Below the pieces are notes generated by a model, which saw only the letters and a program-made list of their open reading frames with translations, was not told the DNA's origin and searched no databases. A stretch of DNA of 64,000 nt from NCBI RefSeq assembly GCF_000424625.1, contig NZ_AUKG01000001.1, positions 310,001-374,000 on the forward strand, written 5' to 3'. This document shows, piece after piece, positions 48,400-53,539 of this stretch (within the stretch, counting starts at the first letter, position 1; every line of letters starts with the position of its first letter). The translations under genes and the position numbers were made by a program. The stretch is from Conexibacter woesei Iso977N. Its GTDB lineage: Bacteria > Actinomycetota > Thermoleophilia > Solirubrobacterales > Solirubrobacteraceae.

Positions 48400-49161
48400 C
48401 TACGGCCCGATCGTGAGCGGACCCACCAAGACCGGCGGCGACGTCGTCGGGACCAGGTTCACCAGCGAGTCGCCGGCGTGAACGCCGGTCGCGACGAGGC
48501 AGTTCCCGGTGCCGGTGTCGACGGCGTAGTACGTCGGAGCGGCGGCCGGCACCGTGCTCGTCGACCCCGCCCGCCAGACGTCGGCCGTGAAGAGGTGGGT
48601 CTCGACGTACCGGTAGGTGGACCGGTCCAGCGTCGCCGCGTAGCGCTGCGGCAGCGTGATCACGGGCTGGCCCGTGCAGGCGGCGTCGGTGTACACCGGC
48701 CCGCCGGCGACGTCCAGGTACGCGGCGGAGTTCGAGAGGCCCCCCTCCGGCACGTAGGTGTAGAGGCCGCCGTCGACCATCACCGAGTAGGCGTTGAACT
48801 GGACGTTGCCCCCGGCGAGCCCCGCGAACTGCCCGAGCACCCGGCCGGCCGGCCCGTAGACGTTGAGCGGCGCGTTCGTCCCGTTGGTGCCGTTCGTCCC
48901 GTTGGTCCCGTTCTTCGACGATCCGTTCGCGCCGCTGGAGCCGTCGGCGCCCGCGCGGCCGGGAACGTTCCACGTCACCTTCTTCGCGCCCTTGGGGCAC
49001 TTCTTCTTCTGGGCCTTGGCGGTCGTGAGGATCTTCACGGCGCCGGTCTTCGTCGTCACGCAGGCGGTGATCGTGGACGTCGCCGCCGCGTGCGCGCCCG
49101 CGGCGCCACCGCCCGCGATGGCGAGGGCGACGAGCGCCGCGATGAGGGCTCGCGCGCGCAT
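48400..49161 (-). CDS. Secreted GTN-repeat protein B
   Basis: 253 residues from ATG 49161, whose A is also the last base of the upstream stop (TGATG). Signal peptide to about residue 26; then TSTITACVTTKTGAVKILTTAKAQKKKCPKGAKKVTWNVPG (about 28-68), a Cys-paired module. A collagen-like Gly-X-Y run SSGANGSSKNGTNGTNGTNGTN follows (about 74-97), then a C-terminal domain of about 150 residues with Cys pairs. It is a paralogue of the gene just upstream, with the same layout but a different head. It probably forms trimeric surface stalks like BclA-type proteins; partner unknown. Confidence 0.75.
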   Translation of the reverse strand: MRARALIAALVALAIAGGGAAGAHAAATSTITACVTTKTGAVKILTTAKAQKKKCPKGAKKVTWNVPGRAGADGSSGANGSSKNGTNGTNGTNGTNAPLNVYGPAGRVLGQFAGLAGGNVQFNAYSVMVDGGLYTYVPEGGLSNSAAYLDVAGGPVYTDAACTGQPVITLPQRYAATLDRSTYRYVETHLFTADVWRAGSTSTVPAAAPTYYAVDTGTGNCLVATGVHAGDSLVNLVPTTSPPVLVGPLTIGP

Positions 49162-49931
49162 CACGCCACCGTCAGCGGGCCGGGGACGTCCGCCGGCACG
49201 GCCACCGGCGTCAGGCTGAAGAGCGGGTCGCCGGGGTTCGCGATGTACGGCGAGCAGAGCCCGGCGAAGTCCTGGCTGTAGTACGTCTGCCCGGCCTGCT
49301 GCGTGCCGGCGGCGACGCCGAGCTTCCACGCCCGGGGCGTCCCGTAGGCGCCGGTGACGGTGTCGATGGGGCGCAGGACCAGCCGGTACTGGCTCGCGAC
49401 GAACGCGGCGTTGACGGCGTCGATGGCGAGTGAGGGCTGGCCGCTGCACGCGGGGTCCGTGAACAGCACGGGTGACGCGACCATGGAGGGGAACAGCTGC
49501 CCGTTCCCGGCGTAGGTCCAGATGCCCCCGTCGGCGAGCACGTAGTAGAGCGAGATGGGGCCGGCGGACAGCAGCCCGAGCTGGAGGCCGACGACGTCGC
49601 CGGTCGCGCTGCGCACGGCCGCCGGCGTGCCGTTCGTGCCGTTGGTCCCGTTCGTGCCGTTGGTCCCGTTGACGCCGTTCGTGCCGTTGGTGCCGTTCTT
49701 GCCGTTCTGGCCCGCGACGCCGGTCGTCACCCAGGTCATCTTCTTGTAGCCCTTCGCGCACTTCTTCTTCTTGGCCTTCGCGGTGGTGAGGACCTTGACC
49801 GCGCCCGTCTTCGTCTTCACGCAGGCGGTGATCGTGGTCGGCGACGCTGCGTGGGCGGGGCCGGCGGCGAGCAGCGCGATTGCGGCGGCGGCTGCGGCTG
49901 CGGCGAGCGTCGGCGTGAGCTTGCTGAACAT
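49161..49931 (-). CDS. Secreted GTN-repeat protein A
   Basis: 256 residues. Signal peptide (LTPTLAAAAAAAAIALLAAGPAHA), the same neck as protein B (SPTTITACVKTKTGAVKVLTTAKAKKKKCAKGYKKMTWV), then a longer Gly-X-Y run (NGKNGTNGTNGVNGTNGTNG..., about 77-101) and a beta-rich head. The run is encoded by near-identical 9- and 18-base DNA repeats (about 49625-49690), so its length can change by slippage. It is the first gene of the pair; the start of protein B overlaps its stop by one base. Confidence 0.75.
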   Translation of the reverse strand: MFSKLTPTLAAAAAAAAIALLAAGPAHAASPTTITACVKTKTGAVKVLTTAKAKKKKCAKGYKKMTWVTTGVAGQNGKNGTNGTNGVNGTNGTNGTNGTNGTPAAVRSATGDVVGLQLGLLSAGPISLYYVLADGGIWTYAGNGQLFPSMVASPVLFTDPACSGQPSLAIDAVNAAFVASQYRLVLRPIDTVTGAYGTPRAWKLGVAAGTQQAGQTYYSQDFAGLCSPYIANPGDPLFSLTPVAVPADVPGPLTVA

Positions 49932-50051: not shown

Positions 50052-50969
50052 CTAGAGCCGGCCGGGCGGCGACGCGGCCGGAGCCTCCCAGGAAAGCGCA
50101 CGGGCGACCGCAAGGAACGCATCCCGGGCGGGGCTCGCGCGGGCCGGGTTCCACATGAAGTCGGTCCGCTGCTCCAGCACGCCGCCCGCCAGCGCGACCC
50201 AGCGGAGGCCGGGCGGGAGCGACGCGCGGACCGCGGCCGACGCCAGCACGACGCCGCGTCCCTCCGCGACGTCGGCGAACGTGGGGTCGAACGACAAGCG
50301 GGGGGTCACGAGGCGCGCGGCGAACCCGGCCGCCGCGCAGGCGGCCAGGACCGCGTCGTAACGGGCGGGCAGTGCGCCTCGCTCGTGCATGAGGAGGCTG
50401 CGATCGGCGAGCTCGCCCAGCTCGAGCTCGGGCCGGTCGGCCAGCGGGTCGTCGGCACGCAGGACGACCCCCGTCGCGCGGCGAGCCAGCTCCTGCACGA
50501 ACAGGCCCTCGGTGTCGGCCGTCCAGCGTGCGAGCGCGACGTCGATCCGCCCATCGCGCAACGCCTGCGGCAGGTCGGGGGACGGCAGCTCGGACGTCTC
50601 GATCCGCACGTCGGGATGGGCGTCGGCCATGGCCGCGACCAGGCGTGGCGCGGCGTCGAAGGCCGCCGAGCGGCCGAAGCCGAACCGCAGGACGCCCGCT
50701 TGGCCGGTGCCGCGGCGTCGTAGGTCCTCCCAGAGCTCATCGACCTCGCGCAGCAGCGCTCGCCCCCGCCCTGCCACCGCGGCGCCGGCGTCCGTGAGCC
50801 TGACCTCGCGCGTGCTGCGGTCGAAGAGCCTGACGCCCAGCTCGTCCTCGAATTGCCGGATCTGCGCGCTCAGCACCTGCTGAGAGACGCCCTCACGCGC
50901 TGCGGCGCGCGTGAAGTTGAGCTCGTCGGCGACGGCGACCGCATAGCGAAGGTGGCGCAGCTCGGGCAC
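50052..50969 (-). CDS. LysR-type transcriptional regulator
   Basis: 305 residues. The N-terminal wHTH (1-65) reads MPELRHLRYAVAVADELNFTRAAAREGVSQQVLSAQIRQFEDELGVRLFDRSTREVRLTDAG; a linker helix and periplasmic-binding-protein-like effector domain follow (about 90-295). It is divergent from the ABM-domain gene at 51041, the usual arrangement between a LysR regulator and its target. A TTGT-N6-ACAA dyad lies between them. Confidence 0.85.
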   Translation of the reverse strand: MPELRHLRYAVAVADELNFTRAAAREGVSQQVLSAQIRQFEDELGVRLFDRSTREVRLTDAGAAVAGRGRALLREVDELWEDLRRRGTGQAGVLRFGFGRSAAFDAAPRLVAAMADAHPDVRIETSELPSPDLPQALRDGRIDVALARWTADTEGLFVQELARRATGVVLRADDPLADRPELELGELADRSLLMHERGALPARYDAVLAACAAAGFAARLVTPRLSFDPTFADVAEGRGVVLASAAVRASLPPGLRWVALAGGVLEQRTDFMWNPARASPARDAFLAVARALSWEAPAASPPGRL

Positions 50970-50978
50970 GGCAGCTGA

Positions 50979-50992
50979 TTGTGACGTGACAA
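50979..50992. promoter_or_regulatory. LysR-box candidate
   Basis: TTGTGACGTGACAA fits the T-N11-A dyad rule for LysR regulators (TTGT arm, ACAA arm). It lies 10 bases from the LysR start and 49 bases from the divergent ABM gene. Confidence 0.45.
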
Positions 50993-51040
50993 CCGCCGGC
51001 TGTTTCTCCTCGAGGCCCGCTCCACATACCGTCGGCGCCC

Positions 51041-51340
51041 ATGACGGACTTCGAGGTCATCGCCCTCTTCACGCCCGCCGACGGTCAGGCCGATGCCGTG
51101 CACGCCGGGCTCGCAGCCCTCGTCGCGCCGTCGCGCGCCGAGCCGGCCAACCGCGGCTACACCGTGCGGCGCATCAGCGCGACGCCGCCGCGTTACGCGG
51201 TCTTCGAGCGCTACCGCGACGCGGCCGCATTCGAGGCCCACCGCACGGCCCCGCACACGTCCGCCTTCCTCGAGCGAGCCGGCGAGCTGCTCGCCGAGCG
51301 GCCCGAGGTGCTCGTCTTCGAGCCCGGAGAGGTCAGCTGA
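51041..51340 (+). CDS. ABM (antibiotic biosynthesis monooxygenase) domain protein
   Basis: 99 residues of dimeric alpha+beta-barrel type: MTDFEVIALFTPADGQADAVHAGLAALVAPSRAEPANRGYTVRRISATPPRYAVFERYRDAAAFEAHRTAPHTSAFL. The pattern (EP...GY, FERYRDxxAFxxH, H) is that of ABM/YgiN quinol or polyketide monooxygenases. It is likely a LysR-controlled small oxidoreductase; substrate unknown. The next gene overlaps its stop. Confidence 0.8.
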   Translation: MTDFEVIALFTPADGQADAVHAGLAALVAPSRAEPANRGYTVRRISATPPRYAVFERYRDAAAFEAHRTAPHTSAFLERAGELLAERPEVLVFEPGEVS

Positions 51341-51696
51341 CGCGGGCTCGCGCGCACGCCGACCGCTGGCTGGCCGCCTGGAACGCGCACGACCTCGAGG
51401 CGATCCTCGCCTCCTATGCCGAGGACGTCGAGCTCGTCGCGCCGACCGTCGTGCGCCGATGGGGCCGTCCCGACGGCCGGCTCGGCGGGCGCCAGGAGCT
51501 CCGCCGCCACTTCGCGCTCGGCCTCGAGCTGGCGCCGGACCTCACGATGACCGAGGAGCGGCTGCTGACGACGCCCGGCGGCTATGCGCTCCTCTACCGG
51601 CGCGAGAACGGCAACACCGCGCTGGACGCGGTGCAGCTCGACGACCACGGCTTTGCCCGCCGTGTGCACGCCTACTACGAGCGCACGCAGGACTGA
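51337..51696 (+). CDS. SnoaL-like (NTF2-fold) protein with probable CTG start
   Basis: 119 residues: TRARAHADRWLAAWNAHDLEAILASYAEDVELVAP...GRLGGRQELRRHFALGLELAPDLTMTEERLLTTPGGYALLYRRENGN. A typical SnoaL-like fold. No ATG, GTG or TTG lies at a sensible place. CTG at 51337 overlaps the upstream TGA as CTGA and has GGAGAGG about five bases before it, so translation by coupling from CTG is the best reading. It is cotranscribed with the ABM gene; the pair may act on one aromatic or polyketide-like substrate. Confidence 0.7.
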   Translation: MTRARAHADRWLAAWNAHDLEAILASYAEDVELVAPTVVRRWGRPDGRLGGRQELRRHFALGLELAPDLTMTEERLLTTPGGYALLYRRENGNTALDAVQLDDHGFARRVHAYYERTQD

Positions 51697-51730: not shown

Positions 51731-51788
51731 ATACGTGACACGTCATTGACTTCGGTCCGCGGGTCTGCCAATTTACGTGACATGTCAT
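51731..51788 (+). promoter_or_regulatory. Promoter of the lactonase operon flanked by two MarR-type operators
   Basis: Operator-like cores GTGACACGTCAT (51735-51746) and GTGACATGTCAT (51777-51788) differ at one base. Between them TTGACT (51746-51751), a 17-base spacer and CAATTT (51769-51774) form a sigma-A-type promoter. Initiation would fall near 51781-51782, at the ATG, giving a leaderless transcript. The same core recurs before the MarR gene at 53064-53075. Confidence 0.65.
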
Positions 51789-52651
51789 CTATCACCTTGG
51801 ACAACGGCATCACCATCCACCCCATCCAGACCGGCACCGTCGCCATCCGCAAGCGCCAGACCGACGGCGCGGGCCGCAAGCGCACGAGCTTCGCCCGCGT
51901 CCTGTCCGACAGGAACTGGACCGAGCCGCTGCCGATCCTCACCTGGCTGATCGAGCACCCCGAGGGCCTGATCCTGGTCGACACCGGCGAGACCCCACGG
52001 GTCAAGGAGCCCGGCTACTTCACCTCTTGGCACCCGTTCTTCCGCCTCGGGCTGAAGGAGTGGGTCGAGCCCCAGGAGGCCGTCGGCGCCCAGATCGAGC
52101 GCCTCGGCTTCTCTCGGGAGGACGTGCGCTACGCCTTGGTCACCCACTTCCACACCGACCACGCGGGCGGCATCAACGACCTGTCGGCCAGCGAGATCAT
52201 CGCCTCGAAGAAGGACTACGACTACTCCAAGGGCTTCCTCGGCAAGGCGCGGGGCTTCCTTCCGCAGCACTGGCCGGCGGGCTTCGCGCCCCGGCTGATC
52301 GAGTTCGACGACGGCCCGTTCGGCCCGTTCGCCGCGTCCACGACGCTGACCTCGGCCGGCGACGTTCACCTCGTGCCGACCCCCGGCCACACTCCTGGGC
52401 ACTTCTCGGTCGTCGTCGAGGACGGCGACACCGCGCTCTTCTTCGCGGGCGACACGAGCTACACCGAGAAGCTGATGCTCGACGGCGTGGTCGACGGCGT
52501 GAGCGCCGACGTCGCCGCGGGCCACGACTCGCTGGCCCGCATCCAGCGGCTGACCGCCGAGCGCCCAACGATCTACCTCCCCACGCACGACCCCCTCGCG
52601 CCGGCCCGGCTGGCCCGCCGCCAGGTCACGACCGCGAAGGCGGTCGTGTGA
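51782..52651 (+). CDS. Metallo-beta-lactamase-fold hydrolase, AHL-lactonase-like
   Basis: 289 residues from ATG 51782. The HxHxDH site is H122, H124, D126 and H127 (THFHTDHAGG). The further ligands are H203 (GHTPGH), D224 (FFAGDTSY) and a His in LPTHDP near the C-terminus, a complete dinuclear zinc site. Overall layout and length match the N-acyl homoserine lactonase group (AiiA/AttM-like), though other lactones are possible substrates. It is the first gene of an operon with an SRPBCC protein and a MarR regulator, and its promoter carries two candidate MarR sites. Confidence 0.8.
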   Translation: MSSITLDNGITIHPIQTGTVAIRKRQTDGAGRKRTSFARVLSDRNWTEPLPILTWLIEHPEGLILVDTGETPRVKEPGYFTSWHPFFRLGLKEWVEPQEAVGAQIERLGFSREDVRYALVTHFHTDHAGGINDLSASEIIASKKDYDYSKGFLGKARGFLPQHWPAGFAPRLIEFDDGPFGPFAASTTLTSAGDVHLVPTPGHTPGHFSVVVEDGDTALFFAGDTSYTEKLMLDGVVDGVSADVAAGHDSLARIQRLTAERPTIYLPTHDPLAPARLARRQVTTAKAVV

Positions 52652-53067
52652 TGCGCGTCCAGGTCACCCAGCACTACCCGCAGGCGCCGGAGACGGTGTA
52701 CGCCTACATGTCGGACCCGCGCAACATGCCGGCATGGAACTCCGCCGTCACCAGCGTCGAGCCGCTCGACGGGGGCACGCGTTACGTGATGCGGCGTGAT
52801 CTGCCATCCGGAGCTGCCACCAACGAGCTGGACGTCGTCTGCAGCGTCCCACCATCCGCGCTGACGATCCGCACGCTCACCGGTCCGACCCCGTTCACCT
52901 ACCACTACACGCTGGAGAGCGCCGCCGGCGGCACGACGCTGCGCCTCGACGGCGAGGTCGAGCTGGGCAGCGTGATCGCGCTCGCCGGACCGCTGGCGAC
53001 GCGGTTCGTCGAGCGCGGCATCGCGGCGAACCTCGCGACGCTGGGGCTGATCCTCGACGCTCGGTGA
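52651..53067 (+). CDS. SRPBCC (polyketide cyclase-like) protein
   Basis: 138 residues from ATG 52651, which shares its A with the upstream stop (TGATG). A START/SRPBCC fold: MRVQVTQHYPQAPETVYAYMSDPRNMPAWNSAVTSVEPLDGGTRYVMR, a central sheet and a long C-terminal helix (GPLATRFVERGIAANLATLGLIL). Such proteins bind hydrophobic ligands. Tight coupling to the lactonase suggests it handles the same compound or its product. Confidence 0.8.
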   Translation: MRVQVTQHYPQAPETVYAYMSDPRNMPAWNSAVTSVEPLDGGTRYVMRRDLPSGAATNELDVVCSVPPSALTIRTLTGPTPFTYHYTLESAAGGTTLRLDGEVELGSVIALAGPLATRFVERGIAANLATLGLILDAR

Positions 53068-53083
53068 CACGTCATGTAACGTG
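53064..53083 (+). promoter_or_regulatory. Operator-like site before the MarR gene
   Basis: GTGACACGTCAT (53064-53075) is identical to the site at 51735-51746. CACGT at 53068-53072 also pairs with ACGTG at 53079-53083. It overlaps the SRPBCC stop codon and lies 15 bases before the MarR ATG. Confidence 0.6.
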
Positions 53084-53089
53084 GTGCCC

Positions 53090-53539
53090 ATGGAGGCCGT
53101 CGAGGAGCTGCGGTACCTGATCCTCGGCGCCCAGCGGGAGGGCGCGCGGGTGTTCGCCGAGCTGCTCAAGCCGCTCGGCCTGACCGCCGCCCAGGCCGAG
53201 GTGCTCGCGGTCCTCCGCGACGCCGACGAGCCGCTCACCGTCCGCGAGATCGGCGAGCGGCTGGTGTGCGAGAGCGGCAGCCCCAGCCGCCTGGTCGCCA
53301 CCGTCGCCGACGCCGGGCTCATCGAACGCGGCACGCGCGAAGGCGATCGTCGCGCCGTCGAGCTGACGCTCACGCCCGCGGGCGCCCGCGCGGCCCAGCA
53401 GGTCGCCAGCGCCGAGCAGGCGCTGCATGCCAGCCTGGCCGCCTCGCTCACCGACCGCCAGGTCGATGCGCTGGTCAGCGGCCTGCGCAAGCTCGTGGAC
53501 CAGCGCGCGGCCGGCGCAGCAATCGCCCATCGCCGATGA
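53090..53539 (+). CDS. MarR-family regulator of the lactonase operon
   Basis: 149 residues from ATG 53090 (GTG 53081 and 53084 are possible). wHTH at about 30-100: LTAAQAEVLAVLRDADEPLTVREIGERLVCESGSPSRLVATVADAGLIERGTREGDRRAVELTLTPAG; the DRR wing is typical. The N- and C-terminal helices form the dimer. It is placed at the end of the operon whose promoter carries two copies of the site found before this gene, so it probably represses both and is relieved by a phenolic or lactone ligand. Confidence 0.85.
   Translation: MEAVEELRYLILGAQREGARVFAELLKPLGLTAAQAEVLAVLRDADEPLTVREIGERLVCESGSPSRLVATVADAGLIERGTREGDRRAVELTLTPAGARAAQQVASAEQALHASLAASLTDRQVDALVSGLRKLVDQRAAGAAIAHRR

Follow-up and report, generated by a model that had tools for sequence, protein, structure and literature searches.

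The most likely reading of a short operon of Conexibacter woesei Iso977N, as far as its sequence allows one to judge, is that of a local, autoregulatory MarR-family repressor acting on a unit that consists of an MBL-fold lactonase-like enzyme and an SRPBCC protein. Three copies of an 18-bp palindrome lie in this operon, which is part of the 64,000-nucleotide stretch of DNA that was analyzed (here called the window, to which coordinates refer unless a contig or locus is named); the palindrome is conserved in relatives and coupled to the MarR gene. The genes and sites concerned are listed below, with G001 and G020 denoting relatives from the same genus and from another genus, respectively.

51732-51749: operator 1, TACGTGACACGTCATTGA; overlaps the -35-like TTGACT; found at the same place in G001 and G020
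51746-51774, + strand: candidate lactonase promoter, TTGACT-N17-CAATTT, with operators 1 and 2 on either side
51774-51791: operator 2, TACGTGACATGTCATCTA; covers the lactonase start codon; three genomes agree at 16 of its 18 positions
51782-52651, + strand: MBL-fold lactonase-like enzyme, 289 amino acids, ATG start; Pfam Lactamase_B, 6e-23
52651-53067, + strand: SRPBCC (Polyketide_cyc2) protein, 138 amino acids; Pfam Polyketide_cyc2, 4e-16; follows the lactonase gene also in G001 and G020
53061-53078: operator 3, TCGGTGACACGTCATGTA; overlaps the -10-like TAACGT (53077-53082) of marR; conserved in G001
53090-53539, + strand: predicted MarR-family repressor, 149 amino acids; Pfam MarR_2, 7e-11

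Operator sites and genes of the operon

The 12-mer GTGACA(C/T)GTCAT, on which the original prediction was built, is found without a mismatch at all three predicted positions (51735-51746, 51777-51788, and 53064-53075, + strand). Alignment with the sites of relatives refined it to an 18-bp palindrome, TANRTGACRYGTCAYNTA, in which TGAC/GTCA is nearly invariant and the outer T...A is kept, and the third copy turned out to hold the SRPBCC stop codon (TGA) as well. The 12-mer pattern, GTGACAYGTCAT, has exactly three exact matches in the whole genome (5,695,417 bases), all of them inside this 1.4-kb operon, and its reversed control has none. Within the window, scanning with at most one mismatch gave 3 matches versus 0.37 expected; at two mismatches, chance-like sites also appear. 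Since base composition alone would, by our own estimate, yield approximately 0.3 occurrences per genome, three sites within 1.4 kb are far beyond chance, and a chance origin was ruled out on the basis of the genome-wide count and the conservation described below. A search of the organism's own genome, by pattern and by protein, revealed no wider regulon: the relaxed 18-mer at one mismatch added a single site elsewhere (C2:1044401), with no visible link to MarR or to the enzyme.

MarR-type regulators typically recognize palindromes of 16 to 20 bp, and these frequently lie across -35 and -10 elements (PMC5401885); the sites reported here have such a length and such positions, over the -35 and -10 elements (placed by inspection) of both the target promoter and the regulator's own promoter. 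The last 4 bases of operator 1 are part of TTGACT (51746-51751), operator 2 begins on the last base of CAATTT (51769-51774), and the two operators are spaced 42 bp apart.

The winged-helix domain of the regulator scored above the Pfam gathering score (MarR_2, 42.7 versus 27 bits; MarR, 34.1 versus 24.6), and the AlphaFold2 model (mean pLDDT, 82) has the normal MarR topology, with alpha helices, a recognition helix (65-74), a beta wing (78-94), and C-terminal dimerization helices; the recognition helix opens with an invariant P-S-R-L. We placed the start of marR at ATG 53090, not at the upstream GTG 53081, and the orthologs begin MEPVEELRYLIL. A lone cysteine, Cys60 (53267-53269), sits in the loop that leads into the recognition helix; it is conserved in G000, G001, G020, G028, G116, and G288 but not in G212 and might conceivably mediate a response to redox changes or electrophiles. 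For the SRPBCC protein, a search of solved structures gave no match.

Directly upstream of the operon (50052-51696), a LysR gene (50052-50969) is divergent from ABM monooxygenase-like and SnoaL-like genes. These three were considered as parts of the system and rejected, as they were not detected at other MarR loci. Farther away, on the - strand, a secreted-looking protein with a collagen-like GTNGTNG repeat is encoded (49161-49931), followed on the same strand by another frame that carries this type of repeat (both within 48400-49931).

Conservation of the sites and their association with marR

In G001, the lactonase, the SRPBCC protein, and MarR are 70%, 59%, and 77% identical to those of the window, and all three operators occupy the same positions, including the 42-bp spacing. 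In G020 (lactonase, 62%; MarR, 73%), marR is transcribed divergently from the lactonase gene, and the intergenic region between them is filled by the same pair of operators at the same 42-bp distance. Operator 1 there also serves marR: read as its reverse complement, GTCAATGACGTGTCATGTATTGT, it is laid out like operator 3 of the window, GGTGACACGTCATGTAACGT. Across the three genomes, 15 of 18 positions of operator 1 are identical, besides the 16 of operator 2, with 4 of 30 identical upstream and 6 of 17 in the spacer, and the overlap between operator and lactonase start codon is conserved in both close relatives. Serine codons 2 and 3 of the lactonase (TCA TCT) are seldom used in these genes (2 and 4 of 133) but do not vary among the three genomes, and the letters GTCATCTA also occur in the noncoding site of a further relative, G116; therefore, selection seems to act on the DNA rather than on the peptide.

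More distant orthologs of MarR are found in other surroundings. G116 (MarR, 54% identical) has no lactonase gene beside marR but a divergent alpha/beta hydrolase gene instead, and the 80-odd bp separating the two genes contain two sites spaced by 21 bp. A divergent alpha/beta hydrolase gene is also present in G212 (another family; MarR, 43%), with one degenerate site between it and marR, at the first candidate ATG of the hydrolase, while in G288 (another family of the class; MarR, 48%) an MBL gene is followed by marR, and two degenerate sites, facing each other, lie upstream of a clear ribosome-binding site. Region shuffles put the chance probability of sites at one mismatch between <0.0005 and approximately 0.01; the stretch upstream of marR in G288 has no such site. 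The expectation that the motif would also precede orthologous operons was thus examined and not refuted, as the motif is present there. A search of the GTDB contig collection for relatives returned only distant MBL genes.

At the position that the -10 element of the divergent marR occupies in G020 (L044:337-391), operator 1 of the window, read as its reverse complement, still contains the hexamer TATCTT, which suggests that the gene arrangement of the window may derive from a divergent one. In G028 (L050, around position 2045), the operator is kept, but the operator-promoter region runs straight into codon ~46 of marR; the first 45 codons are missing, through decay or an assembly error, and the gene looks decayed.

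Among 399 genomes of the class, a MarR ortholog was found in 6, the 18-mer (at most one mismatch) in 10, and both in 5. The 18-mer is thus present in 5 of 6 genomes with a MarR ortholog versus 5 of 393 without (Fisher P, approximately 2e-8, or 6e-7 without the organism's own genome), a test that is partly circular, because the 18-mer, drawn from G000, G001, G020, and G116 (with G028 and G288 left out of the drawing), was defined after G001, G020, and G116 had been seen. The 12-mer, which had been fixed beforehand and whose co-occurrence with MarR orthologs had been proposed as a check, gave a weaker but concordant result. As the reversed 18-mer occurs in 4 of the 399 genomes, we regarded the 5 genomes with the 18-mer but without MarR as background. 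Similarly, the sites in G030, G036, G024, G106, G159, and G330 have no MarR, lactonase, or hydrolase relative within ~3 to 4 kb and, given the reversed control, were taken as background. Judging from these loci, the palindrome tracks the MarR gene and not the enzyme: the sites move with marR.

The lactonase-like enzyme and the start of its gene

The AlphaFold2 model of the enzyme (pLDDT, 92) has as its nearest solved structures the quorum-quenching lactonases AhlX, GcL, AiiA, and AiiB (Z, 27 to 29; root mean square deviation, 2.3 to 2.9 Å), closely followed by 4-pyridoxolactonase (Z, 27.1); methyl parathion hydrolase was less similar (Z, 25), and IMP beta-lactamases were much less so (Z, 17). 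All metal ligands, H-x-H-x-D-H plus H, D, and H, are present (H122, H124, D126, H127, H203, D224, and H269), as is the Tyr of the D-x-S-Y motif (Tyr194 in AiiA), with D-T-S-Y-T of the enzyme aligning with D-A-S-Y-T of AiiA. By modeled fold and metal ligands, then, this is predicted to be a member of the AiiA/AttM/pyridoxolactonase clade. The cut-offs of the NCBIfam equivalog models for AHL lactonases were all missed widely, i.e., those of AttM (80.8 of 390 bits), AiiA (73.3 of 375), AidB (51.3 of 360), AhlS (39.2 of 475), and YtnP (26.7 of 425), and so was that of 4-pyridoxolactonase (73.1 of 325). We therefore call the enzyme a lactonase-clade MBL rather than an AHL lactonase; of the AHL-lactonase-like enzyme in the original prediction, the clade held up by fold, while the narrower label finds no support in scores of about 73 to 81 bits against equivalog cut-offs of 325 to 390. 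A second lactonase-clade MBL gene (C2:1186215-1186982; 39% identical) is present in the organism's own genome, without these operators.

As to what the enzyme opens, we consider it fairly likely that the unit works as described but acts on another lactone or ester (pyridoxolactone-like, an aromatic or xenobiotic lactone, or a phosphotriester-like ester), which would make it a detoxification or catabolic switch apart from quorum signals. The 4-pyridoxolactonase model scores nearly as high as that of AiiA, with its structure nearly as close, and the orthologous MarRs pair with hydrolases nearest to the 3-oxoadipate enol-lactonase and C-C hydrolase families, not with AHL enzymes; the SRPBCC, ABM, and SnoaL neighbors hint at small hydrophobic or aromatic substrates. 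Against such a substrate speak the nearest solved structures, which are mostly AHL lactonases, and the retained Tyr of the AiiA motif. These same features, together with the metal ligands shared with AiiA and the precedent of QsdR, which is released by homoserine lactone in Rhodococcus (PMC6262395), would fit an AHL lactonase in an AHL-induced quorum-quenching operon, as originally proposed. That proposal seems rather improbable to us, given scores of approximately one-fifth or less of the cut-off for every AHL-lactonase family tested, an identity of only ~20% to known structures, and the replacement of the Tyr by Phe in the MBL of the MBL-marR pair of G288. Quorum quenching is accordingly one possibility among several.

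The predicted promoter element TTGACT-N17-CAATTT does lie between the first two sites, though it is weak as a sigma-70 promoter: TTGACT matches the consensus at 5 of 6 positions and CAATTT (versus TATAAT) at 2 of 6, and a consensus promoter scan at 9 of 12 reported no promoter at this place. The -35 element and the 17-nucleotide spacing are kept in G001 (TTGACA...CACTAT) and G020 (TTGACT...CAAGGT). The lactonase ATG (51782-51784) is located inside operator 2, 7 nucleotides past CAATTT, and no Shine-Dalgarno sequence precedes it in the window (G020 has AAGGTG at that place). Likewise, TAACGT lies 7 nucleotides before the marR ATG, and the marR start codons of G000, G001, G020, and G116 follow TAnnnT-type hexamers by 6 to 8 nucleotides, so that both promoters may be leaderless. 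Since 33% of transcripts in Corynebacterium glutamicum were reported to lack a 5' untranslated region (PMC5401885), this idea is reasonable for a high-G+C bacterium (G+C content, 71%). Leaderless initiation on the lactonase ATG is plausible and somewhat more likely than not: it fits both the spacing and the missing Shine-Dalgarno sequence in the window, while the weak -10 element, the alternative in-frame codons that G001 and G020 have at -9, and the leader of G288 call for caution.

Transcription might instead start upstream of the ATG, with translation from an in-frame codon before the operator (TTG 51746, or the ATG or GTG at -9 in relatives). The reading frame is open upstream of the lactonase ATG, an in-frame ATG (G001) or GTG (G020) is present at -9, the -10 element is weak, and the more distant G288 has a clear leader with a Shine-Dalgarno sequence. 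We nevertheless regard such a start as doubtful: apart from the TTG that forms the -35 element, the three near orthologs share no start codon except the ATG within the operator, and in all of them a -10-like hexamer lies 7 nucleotides from it; this ATG lacks a Shine-Dalgarno sequence in the window; and the lactonase structure model is confident from residue 1.

Proposed regulation and comparison with known systems

The proposal made at the outset, that the neighboring MarR uses these sites as its operators and also controls its own gene, is supported by the co-occurrence, conservation, and positions of the sites. On these sequence-based grounds, we consider it highly probable that MarR is paired with these sites and represses both promoters, and the pairing of regulator and operator in a switch of an ordinary kind is well supported. 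In the mechanism that we propose, MarR (53090-53539) would bind the 18-bp palindrome as a dimer, with one dimer on the -35 element of the lactonase promoter and one over its transcription start and start codon (operators 1 and 2, which bracket this promoter), and a third on the promoter of marR itself (operator 3). Unliganded MarR would then block RNA polymerase at both promoters, steric repression being the most economical reading. As 42 bp corresponds to four turns of 10.5 bp, and the 21 bp in G116 to two, the members of each pair should face the same side of the helix, so that cooperation between them would be possible; alternatively, the layout of the promoter may by itself account for the 42-bp spacing. 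MarR would be released by a small molecule, probably a compound of ester or lactone type that the enzyme uses as its substrate or a relative of that compound, so that the lactonase and the SRPBCC protein would be made on demand and MarR would limit its own level; with an inducer-destroying enzyme placed under an inducer-lifted repressor, the switch would be self-limiting.

A different regulator (e.g., the LysR protein encoded at 50052-50969) could in principle own the palindromes, leaving MarR a bystander, and G019 does carry an exact operator, ATGACACGTCAC (L076:3241-3252), just upstream of a distant MBL gene (~33 to 36% identical) with no MarR ortholog detected in that genome; we consider this very improbable, as MarR is the only gene common to the site-bearing loci (G116 and G212 do not even have the lactonase) and the G019 locus is the only one of 27 MBL-relative loci without MarR (L007 to L033) to have an exact site.

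Returning to MarR as the regulator, the finding that alpha/beta hydrolases close to enol-lactonase families take the place of the metallo-lactonase under some orthologs of MarR suggests a lactone or an ester as the sensed compound, although we would give about even chances to induction by such a compound. One might go further and speculate, tentatively, that a lineage-specific MarR served as a lactone or ester sensor whose ligand and 18-bp operator were kept while the hydrolase under its control was swapped for a nonhomologous enzyme, giving a metallo-lactonase in some species and an alpha/beta hydrolase in others, with the operator in the start codon region dictating the first codons.

The regulator-operator pair described here combines an 18-bp code that is sharply defined with a regulon of one locus, and it comes from a host group for which we found little regulatory work in the literature; our literature searches, partial in coverage, brought up no report of a lactonase under MarR control that has this site. 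MarR could serve as bait for the natural substrate of an uncharacterized lactonase-clade enzyme.

Among known regulators, Escherichia coli MarR belongs to the same family of winged-helix dimers and is the best-scoring PDB homolog (42 bits), but sequence similarity is low, and the regulator reported here has a private 18-bp operator, with the core TGACRYGTCA, and a single local regulon. In that respect it resembles CrtR of C. glutamicum (PMC5401885), a MarR-type regulator with a tiny regulon (the neighboring operon and its own gene), a site over promoter elements, and an own transcript reported to be leaderless. CrtR differs in controlling carotenoid genes, in its ligands (isoprenoid pyrophosphates), and in its TTAA motif; also, crtE transcription starts 114 nucleotides upstream of the start codon, whereas here one operator covers the start codon (PMC5401885). 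The enzyme, for its part, shares fold, dinuclear metal ligands, and the D-x-S-Y Tyr with AiiA, AttM, AhlX, GcL, and 4-pyridoxolactonase but is set apart from them by its low identity and by scores far below the equivalog cut-offs. Finally, QsdR, the repressor of the qsd lactonase operon of Rhodococcus erythropolis, binds between the qsdR and qsdA genes and dissociates in response to the ring of homoserine lactone (PMC6262395); both systems place a local repressor over an operon for a lactone-cleaving enzyme. However, QsdR is a TetR-family protein and the qsd operon includes an acyl-CoA ligase gene, whereas the operon described here has a MarR-family regulator and an SRPBCC partner. If the inducer is indeed a lactone, this MarR would be a counterpart of QsdR.
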